A stretch of 64,000 nt of DNA from Oceanospirillaceae bacterium. Lineage in GTDB: Bacteria > Pseudomonadota > Gammaproteobacteria > Pseudomonadales > Balneatricaceae. Shown here one piece after another: positions 5,540 to 41,862 of this stretch (position 1 is its first letter; every line of letters begins with the position of its first letter). Both the position numbers and the translations under genes were made by a program. A model generated the notes under the pieces. That model saw only the letters and a program-made list of their open reading frames with translations, was not told the origin of the DNA and made no database searches. The DNA lies in assembly GCA_013215375.1 (NCBI GenBank), contig JABSRB010000018.1:1-64000 (forward strand), in the 5' to 3' direction.

Positions 5540-5775
5540 AGGCGTTGTGGATTAACAGGCCATGGTTGGTTTGTCGCTAGACAGTGTTGTGAAAATGAGT
5601 GGTTCTATACAAAGGTCTAATTTATATACGCTAGCCCTTTAGCTATATTTATTTAAAGTAACAAATAGAATATAAACACAGAGTATTGTAGCTACCTAGT
5701 GCTGGCGGCCGTTAGAATCTTTTAACCCGCCATTGCTCGGTGAATAAACAGCTAATAACAATAAAAGGGCGTAAA

Positions 5776-7731
5776 ATGAGCACAAAAACTGTATATGAAG
5801 TGGATTCTGGATTTGCAGAGAAGGCCATTGTAAATAAAGAGAAGTTTCAAGCTATGTACCAGCAGTCTATCAGCGATCCCGATGCTTTCTGGGGCGAGCA
5901 GGGCAAGAGGATTGATTGGTTTAAAAAGTATAGTAAAGTCAAAAATTGTTCATTTGAGCTAGGTAACGTCAGTATTAACTGGTTTGAAGACGGTACTTTG
6001 AATGCTTCATACAATTGTCTAGATCGTCATCTGCAGGAACGCGGCGATCAAGTGGCTATCATTTGGGAGTCAGACGACCCTAGTAAGTCCGAGTCAATTA
6101 CCTATAAAGAGTTGCATCATCGTGTTTGCAAATTTGCCAATGTATTAAAAAACGAGGGTGTATCACAAGGTGATGTTGTTACTTTGTATATGCCAATGAT
6201 TCCTCAAGCTGCTGTTGCGATGTTGGCATGTGCTCGCATAGGCGCAGTACACTCCGTCGTTTTTGGAGGGTTCTCGCCAGATGCTTTAGCGTCTCGTATT
6301 GAGGGTGCCAAGTCTAAGCTGGTGGTGACTGCTAATTACTCGCTACGTGGTGCTAAAGCGATAGCATTAAAAGCAAACGTAGATGCAGCGATGCAAAATC
6401 CCGCAGCGCAAAAATACTGTAAGCGCGTTATCGTGGTTAATCATGTAGATAAAGAAGTCGCCTGGAATGAGGAGCTTGATAGAGATTACGATACTCTGGT
6501 TGCCGGGGTCTCTGCACAGTGTGAGCCGGTAGAGTTGTCCGCTGAGGCGCCGTTGTTTATTTTGTATACATCAGGATCAACGGGTGCTCCTAAAGGCCTT
6601 GAGCATACAACTGGTGGTTATATGGTGTATGCATCAATGACTCACGAGTATGTGTTCGATTATCGCCCGGGTGATATTTATTGGTGTACAGCCGACGTGG
6701 GTTGGATTACTGGGCACAGTTATATTATTTACGGACCTCTAGCCAATGGCGCGACTACCTTGATGTTTGAAGGAGTGCCTAGCTATCCTGATAACAGTCG
6801 TTTTGGTCGTGTGATTGAAAAGCATAAAGTGACCCAGTTCTACACCGCCCCAACGGCAATCAGGGCGCTAATGCAGCATGGAGATGATGTGTTGGGTGAT
6901 GCTGATCTCAGTAGTTTAAGGTTGTTAGGGTCAGTGGGTGAGCCTATAAATCCAGAGGCTTGGGAGTGGTACCACAGAGTGGTCGGTAAAGGTAATTGCC
7001 CTATAGTGGATACTTGGTGGCAAACGGAGACGGGTGGCATCATGATCGTTCCTCTAGCGGGAGTCAGTGATGCTAAGCCTGGAGCGGCAACTCAGCCATT
7101 TTTTGGTGTGCAAGTAGCGCTGGTAGACAACGATGGAGGCTTAATTGAAGGAGCGGGAGAAGGTAATTTGGTTATTACTGAATCTTGGCCGGCACAAGCT
7201 AGATCTATCTGGGGAGATCATGAGCGTTTTGAGCAGACCTACTTTGCTACCTTTAAGGGTGCCTATACCACAGGTGACGGTGCGCGTCGCGATGAGCAAG
7301 GGGATTACTGGATAACCGGTCGTGTTGATGATGTGTTAAATGTATCTGGTCACCGTATGGGTACCGCTGAAATTGAATCGGCATTGGTGTCTCATCCTGC
7401 GGTTGCAGAATCTGCAGTGGTTGGTTTTCCCCATGAGATTAAAGGACAAGGTATTTATATATATGTAGCATTGATGTCCGGCGTTGAGCCTGATGAAGAA
7501 CTAAGACTAGAGCTCAGAGCTTGGGTGCGTAAGCAAATTGGTCCAATTGCAACACCTGATTTTATTCAATTTACCTCTGGGATGCCAAAAACTCGCTCAG
7601 GGAAAATAATGCGTAGAATTTTGCGCAAAATAGCTGAAGATGATTTCGCGGCTCTAGGTGATACATCTACGCTAGCAGATCCAAGTGTCGTTGATGAGCT
7701 AATTGAATTGCGTTGCAACCGTAAGGGGTAG
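5776..7731 (+). CDS. acs: acetyl-CoA synthetase (AMP-forming)
   Basis: [49 protein letters not shown] and [11 protein letters not shown] motifs. Confidence 0.93.
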
Positions 7732-7785: not shown

Positions 7786-7808
7786 GTTAGGTGTGTGAAA
7801 AAGCTTAT

Positions 7809-7871
7809 AAGTCCAAGTCCAAGTCCAAGTCCAAGTCCAAGTCCAAGTCCAAGTCCAAGTCCAAGTCCAAG
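7809..7871. repeat. Hexanucleotide microsatellite (AAGTCC)x10 plus partial unit
   Basis: Ten perfect AAGTCC units at 7809-7868, then partial AAG. Confidence 0.98.
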
Positions 7872-7928
7872 CCATCAGTGAATGAACTGTTTTTTATCGT
7901 CGAAAAATATATATGCTTAAATGAAAAC

Positions 7929-12279: not shown

Positions 12280-12450
12280 TAGTTAGTTTTATCCTGAAAC
12301 GGGGCCGTAGCGAGGCTGATCCAATCGTTCGAGATGTGCAATACTAGATATGGACGTTTGGTTGTTCCAAATAACTGTATCTAGTGGTGTGCAGATCGAA
12401 TGGTTGGGGCAGTCGCAGTAGGCATCTGTTTTTTGATGGAAACTAGTTAG
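12280..12450 (+). repeat. Dispersed intergenic hairpin element, copy A (fliH-fliI)
   Basis: Core 12294-12420 aligns without gaps to 41547-41673 (107/127 identical by hand count). Nested stems GGCTG/CAGTC, CCAATCGTTCGA/TCGAATGGTTGG, ACTAGATA/TATCTAGT, TTTGG/CCAAA. Confidence 0.9.
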
Positions 12451-41432: not shown

Positions 41433-41532
41433 GAGAGACTCAAGTGATGCTGTTTGTTGATCGCGGATTATATATGATCAGGGCTGTGCTGTTCTACCGC
41501 CAACGTCAATATTGGTATTAAAAGAGCAAGCC

Positions 41533-41700
41533 CGCTAGTGTCCATGCTGAAACAGGGGCGTAGCGAGGCTGATCCAATAGTTCAAGATGAGTGACCCTAG
41601 ATAGGGGCGTTTGGTTGTTCCAAATAACTCTATCTAGTGGTGATCAGATTGAAATAGTGGGGCAGCCGCAGTAGCTCATGGTTTCAGCTTGGGTACTAGG
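41533..41700 (+). repeat. Dispersed intergenic hairpin element, copy B (pdxA-surA), right end split by MITE
   Basis: 127-bp ungapped match to copy A; terminal inverted repeat GCTGAAAC (41546-41553)/GTTTCAGC (41681-41688). Confidence 0.9.
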
Positions 41701-41862
41701 AGCCTGTCCGAGAGCAGACTAATCGGCAGCGACCAATCCTCTTTGGTTATAATTAACGCTAATTTTCGTTAAATAGCACGCTATTCGCCTTAAATCACCG
41801 CTAATTCTTCCTCAGATAGCTTTGTTCTCGCTTCGATCGCAGTGCTCGGACAGACTCCTAGT
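41695..41862. mobile_element. MITE-like non-autonomous element, TIR ACTAGGAG(C/T)CTGTCCGAG, putative CTAG target duplication
   Basis: 41695-41712 ACTAGGAGCCTGTCCGAG versus 41845-41862 CTCGGACAGACTCCTAGT (17/18 inverted match); 168 bp; no ORF; empty-site comparison with copy A. Confidence 0.85.

Follow-up and report, generated by a model that had tools for sequence, protein, structure and literature searches.

The gap between the flagellar genes fliH and fliI of an Oceanospirillaceae bacterium (assembly GCA_013215375.1) holds a long hairpin-forming sequence without a gene, which raises the question of what kind of element it is and how it came to lie there. The window analyzed here, the whole 64,000-nucleotide stretch at positions 1 to 64,000 of contig JABSRB010000018.1, contains a related sequence between pdxA and surA. 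The original prediction paired a 127-bp core at 12294-12420 with 41547-41673 and wavered between a MITE/REPIN-like element and a repeated structured RNA. Both sequences belong to a MITE family that, judging from sequence comparisons, was very probably (we would put it at about 0.9) moved in trans by a transposase of the ISNCY family, landing at TANNTA.

Two complete copies in the window

A recount reproduced exactly the ungapped identity of the two cores (107 of 127 positions) and their common apical sequence TTTGGTTGTTCCAAATAACT, which starts at 12357 in copy A and at 41610 in copy B; neither copy harbors a gene-sized reading frame. Within the 64-kb window, no further pair of such length and identity was found. 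The two stretches are indeed related, but the 127 bp proved to be the core only, with boundaries that were too narrow. Alignment of the copies with their flanks revealed a sharply bounded conserved unit of 159 bp, with GTTYYCATCCAGAAAC at its start, the inverted form of this sequence at its end, and TANNTA directly outside on either side. The full unit measures 158 bp in copy A, which carries a 1-bp deletion in its left terminal repeat, and 159 bp in copy B, both with terminal inverted repeats:

12280-12285, + strand: left target-site duplication of copy A, TAGTTA, identical to 12444-12449 and in line with the TANNTA statistics of 65 copies
12286-12443, + strand: copy A, complete 158-bp MITE between fliH and fliI, aligned with full copies from several congeneric genomes
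12286-12300, + strand: left terminal inverted repeat of copy A, GTTTTATCCTGAAAC (consensus GTTYYCATCCAGAAAC)
12314-12416, + strand: long interrupted hairpin of copy A with the apical loop TTGTT, from the fold, its stem backed by covariation
12428-12443, - strand: right terminal inverted repeat of copy A, GTTTCCATCAAAAAAC read inward, from the alignment of copies
12444-12449, + strand: right target-site duplication of copy A, TAGTTA, a perfect 6-bp match to the left hexamer
41532-41537, + strand: left flank of copy B, CCGCTA, a degenerate duplication in which only the last TA fits TANNTA
41538-41696, + strand: copy B, complete 159-bp MITE in the pdxA-surA gap, antisense to both genes
41697-41698, + strand: TA, the first bases of the right duplication TAGTTA of copy B, which, as judged from the joined flanks, resumes at 41861

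The right hexamer of copy B is interrupted by a second, unrelated inverted-repeat element, and joining the flanks restores TAGTTA. This second MITE-like element (41699-41858) has the arms GGAGCCTGTCCGAG and CTCGGACAGACTCC and a TA on both sides, having inserted into a TA; one end of another copy of it lies in L065 (3400-3413). Tandem repeats are also present in the window: an 18-bp one (ACTGCAGAAATCGAAGAC) at the window start (1-144) and an AAGTCC repeat at 7797-7874, just 3' of the 5740-7731 reading frame among the clustered flagellar genes.

Copy number, target duplications, and absence from the orthologous site

The family is not limited to two copies without homologs. With copy A as the query, BLAST against the full assembly to which the window belongs (5.0 Mb in 96 contigs) returned 45 places, mostly 76-94% identical over 130-181 bp, and the end motif matched 89 times in this genome, compared with 4 times for the reversed control; about 40 copies are present in the genome. 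The Osedax symbiont Rs1 (Oceanospirillales), a congener, carries more than 20 copies. With copy B as the query, 19 places were found in the Rs1 genome, a few places in each of three further congeners, and at most a marginal match in other genera of the family. Plasmid and phage collections contained no copy of the hairpin MITE, and viral contigs yielded only two end-motif matches and no relative of the ISNCY transposase.

Duplication statistics were obtained for 65 two-ended copies in the genus, all with terminal repeats of 16-18 bp, and compared with 5000 rounds of shuffled pairs; copy A enters this set one base out of register, owing to the 1-bp deletion at its left end. Identical left and right hexamers flank 30 of the 65 copies, compared with 7.4 on average and never more than 16 after shuffling; for the two free middle bases, 45 copies show agreement, compared with 12.5 (at most 24) after shuffling. 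Outside the hexamer, agreement falls to approximately chance level (1.77 of 6 bases). The duplication has the consensus TANNTA and is usually TARYTA. Four congeners have kept the fliH-fliI gene pair, and in all four the gap lacks the element; the intergenic sequence there is too diverged for a base-by-base reading of the empty site.

Some copies are arranged head to tail with one hexamer common to both neighbors, as expected for insertion into a preserved target. One contig of Rs1 (L097, G003:C134, 1108-1599) carries three near-alike head-to-tail copies and a partial fourth, with common TARYTA duplications. Shorter forms (54-112 bp) have retained both ends and, in most cases, the hexamers, a pattern that internal deletions in a palindrome would produce. 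Eleven loci (L072, L073, L074, L062, L064, L067, L103, L104, L114, L115, and L120) hold forms of ∼54-81 bp with both ends, most of them with matching hexamers; these could be internal palindrome deletions or a separately mobile short form.

Relationship to ISNCY insertion sequences

When 85,000 species genomes were scanned for exact occurrences of TANNTAGTTYYCATCCAGAAAC, at least 102 stretches were retrieved, mostly from Proteobacteria (drafts from the gamma, beta, and delta classes, with a few from elsewhere). Many of the matches listed represent complete elements: 141-187 bp long, they have matching hexamers and a long hairpin but unrelated interiors. An autonomous element was identified in one Nitrosomonadales contig (L143/L272): it consists of TAGTTA, the end GTTCCCATCCAGAAACAT, a gene for a 441-aa transposase, and the right end GTTCTCATCCATAAAC, which has one mismatch to the MITE end. 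The transposase is assigned to NF033593 (ISNCY family) with 430 bits against a cut-off of 325 and to the Pfam family DDE_Tnp_1. In L143, the contig end cuts the right duplication short, leaving TAA, compared with TAGTTA on the left. In another genome that is rich in similar MITEs (L273), an ISNCY transposase gene lies behind TAGTTA and the end GTGTCCATCCAGAAGCAC. Three other ISNCY elements have different ends and the duplications TACTTA, TAGTTA, and TAGTCTA; the last of these is a Sinorhizobium element with the ends GTGCCCGTCCATAAACG, a relative of ISRm17.

ISNCY elements of several classes share with the MITE a near-identity over 16 end bases and the TANNTA target, and the MITE has the GT...AC ends and the TANNTA-type duplication of 6-7 bp seen in ISNCY elements. 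The same ends and target on hairpin elements and on ISNCY insertion sequences indicate that the MITE was moved in trans, with an ISNCY transposase as the probable mover. No homology between the MITE and the autonomous element was found beyond the ends, and the MITE has no coding capacity; it is a derivative or parasite of the ISNCY family, not an autonomous member.

The window's own genome yielded neither an ISNCY transposase nor a pair of MITE ends enclosing a gene. Unpaired end-motif matches were considered as candidates for an autonomous partner, both there and in the congeners, and turned out to be truncated or short MITEs. The congeners contained only decayed ISNCY pieces (in Rs1 and in G001), with other or unrecognizable ends. 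In the absence of an ISNCY transposase from the window's genome, the MITE there is probably orphaned, its mover having probably been lost, left unassembled, or supplied from outside. A transposase scoring above the cut-off was detected in only 3 of 20 genomes with the end motif, many of which are drafts that break at repeats. Several CAINBI contigs (L138, L140, L155, L159, L173, L179, and others) end ∼120-140 bp inside an identical end sequence, and a multicopy autonomous element that disrupts the assembly is the probable cause of these breaks.

Insertion at stop codons

Stop codons were examined at copies whose insertion point is reached by a long open frame. At 21 of the 65 copies, accounting for 23 gene ends, the stop codon either lies precisely within the duplicated hexamer (TAR) or straddles its edge, with TA from the hexamer followed by the first G of the element. 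The joined flanks give the same stop codon in the empty site, so these genes end at their native, undamaged stop, and no long frame reaching an element is shortened by it. Of the TARYTA sites in the window, 3 are on stop codons, 25 elsewhere between genes, and 45 inside genes; relative to this small reference (3 versus 25 sites), the 21 copies among 65 represent a roughly threefold enrichment (p of ∼2e-6). This enrichment can be attributed to the target itself, which provides TAA/TAG on both strands, combined with the loss of harmful insertions.

The following sequence of events is proposed. A DDE transposase of the ISNCY family (of the NF033593/ISRm17 kind), made elsewhere or in the past, would recognize the GTTYYCATCCAGAAAC ends and cut the element out or copy it. 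Joining of the element to a TANNTA target (usually TARYTA) cut with a 6-bp stagger would then generate the flanking duplication. With TAA/TAG on both strands of the target and the initial G of the element completing TAG, insertions at gene ends would keep the stop codon; together with the loss of harmful insertions, this would confine the family to stop codons and intergenic DNA. Within a transcript, the MITE body is predicted to fold into one long hairpin, which may have made insertions tolerable or aided the spread of the element.

The hairpin and the alternative explanations

The long hairpin described in the original prediction was borne out by single-strand folding of the + strand (z = -6.9 for copy A and -5.4 for copy B; 0 of 200 shuffles as good). 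Over 49 full copies, 96% of the consensus stem cells are paired, compared with 90.8% after shuffling, and 170 are double-change cells, compared with 56; most of the signal is gone when the stem is slid by one column. Counted in a strand-neutral register, G.U cells number 499 and A.C cells 109, and among variants found in at least 3 copies, the ratio is 30 to 5. These counts are inflated by the choice of the stem on the + strand and by the relatedness of the copies. In every copy, the better fold is that of the + strand and not the - strand. Private mutations, however, convert Watson-Crick pairs to G.U and to A.C equally often (14 and 14). In the MITE family of genome JAHJAA, which has the same ends, the G.U excess over A.C is weak (42 versus 33), and the same strand folds better in every copy.

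The even split of private mutations, along with the occurrence of copies in either orientation to genes, suggests that settled copies are neutral. That any constraint on the fold acted on multiplying lineages and not on settled copies is a lead, not a conclusion. A tentative and rather doubtful extension is that the one-strand hairpin was needed for spread, with compensatory and G.U changes preserving the fold (as RNA or single-stranded DNA) in the multiplying lineages and mutations accumulating freely in settled copies. If so, selection on the fold would operate on the mobile lineage, for instance through shielding of host transcripts or a part in transposition, and would go together with stop-codon landing as a low-damage mode of insertion.

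The same fold and covariation, as well as the start of about one-third of the copies at a stop codon, could be expected if the repeat served the host as a dispersed structured RNA or as a hairpin in 3' UTRs (an mRNA stabilizer or attenuator), spread by transposition and retained for its useful transcript. The copies show no orientation bias relative to the neighboring genes (++, 13; +-, 13; --, 12; -+, 7), copy B is antisense to both of its neighbors, private mutations break and keep pairs alike, and the fliH-fliI site lacks the element in the four congeners, all of which makes such a role improbable. At Rfam gathering thresholds, only tRNA passed in the window; the best subthreshold match of copy A was RUF6-5 (29.1 bits versus 70), and matches at a permissive threshold were only chance-like eukaryotic hairpins. 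A promoter and terminator scan over copy A detected nothing. The structured RNA of the original prediction, taken as a dedicated regulatory RNA, is accordingly not supported.

REP and REPIN sequences are palindromic units of 20-40 bp, usually paired and without a target duplication. The MITE resembles them in being palindromic and intergenic and in having a GTAG-like tetramer (CGTAGCGAGG) near one end, but it is a single 159-bp unit, not a set of paired REPs, with terminal repeats of 16-18 bp, a duplicated 6-bp TANNTA, and ends common to ISNCY elements. Movement by a RAYT (TnpA-REP) transposase is therefore hardly credible, the duplications largely refuting it. There is also a slim chance that the ends resemble those of ISNCY elements by convergence only and that the mover belongs to another transposase family, as the lack of an ISNCY transposase in the host genome and the scarcity of transposases in drafts holding the end motif might suggest; against this stands the near-identity over 16 end bases with the same TANNTA in ISNCY elements from several classes. 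What endures of the original prediction is the MITE: a short noncoding element with inverted termini, a 6-bp TANNTA duplication, ∼40 dispersed copies, absence from the orthologous site in four congeners, and ends common to an autonomous ISNCY element.

Comparison with known mobile elements

The MITE family is real and undescribed in the literature searched; it belongs to an already known type of mobile DNA and is no novel RNA. No exact match to a known IS, MITE, or Rfam family was found, nor was an ISNCY-derived MITE with such an end and target in the literature searched (mostly freely accessible papers). An undescribed repeat of the Oceanospirillales lineage that includes relatives of the Osedax symbiont Rs1 thereby acquires a concrete identity, and MITEs with one end sequence and one target in several proteobacterial classes are tied to ISNCY transposases; TANNTAGTTYYCATCCAGAAAC is a ready probe for annotating them. 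How small transposons avoid doing harm can be tested on two points: their precise use of stop codons as sites of insertion, and the difference between hairpin mutations that copies share and those private to one copy.

YPAL/RU-2 of Yersinia (168 bp) is similar in size, palindromic, intergenic, and tied to the transcripts of upstream genes. Unlike the MITE, with its terminal repeats and fixed 6-bp TANNTA, YPAL is described as having no terminal TA, internal inverted repeats, and duplications of 3-26 bp (PMC2229807). ERIC/RU-1, Correia/NEMIS, and RUP likewise are short noncoding mobile elements with stem-loop transcripts, and RUP has been linked to IS630-Spn1 and a TA target (PMC2229807), whereas the ends and target of the MITE are of the ISNCY kind. 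As far as it is described in a review, the Chunjie MITE of Geobacter uraniireducens (38 copies of 178-235 bp) is comparable in its conserved ends, repeats, and mostly intergenic location (PMC10969869) and could fall inside or outside the same ISNCY group.

Among the closest counterparts are the hairpin MITEs of 141-187 bp (such as L141, L160, L164, L203, L222, and L239), which have the same ends, the same TANNTA, and a long internal hairpin (z of -2.7 to -11.6 for the strand read); their interiors are unrelated to that of the MITE, and their hosts belong to other groups, several of them to other classes. The ISNCY elements of the NF033593/ISRm17 kind (also ISMlo5 and ISRtr6) resemble the MITE in terminal repeats that begin with GT(T/G)YCC(A/G)TCCA.AAAC, in the TANNTA duplication (6 bp, or 7 bp, TAGTCTA, in the Sinorhizobium copy), and in back-to-back copies with a common duplication. 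These elements are ∼1.7 kb long and encode a DDE transposase, whereas the MITE is a noncoding element of 159 bp that has only the ends in common with them.
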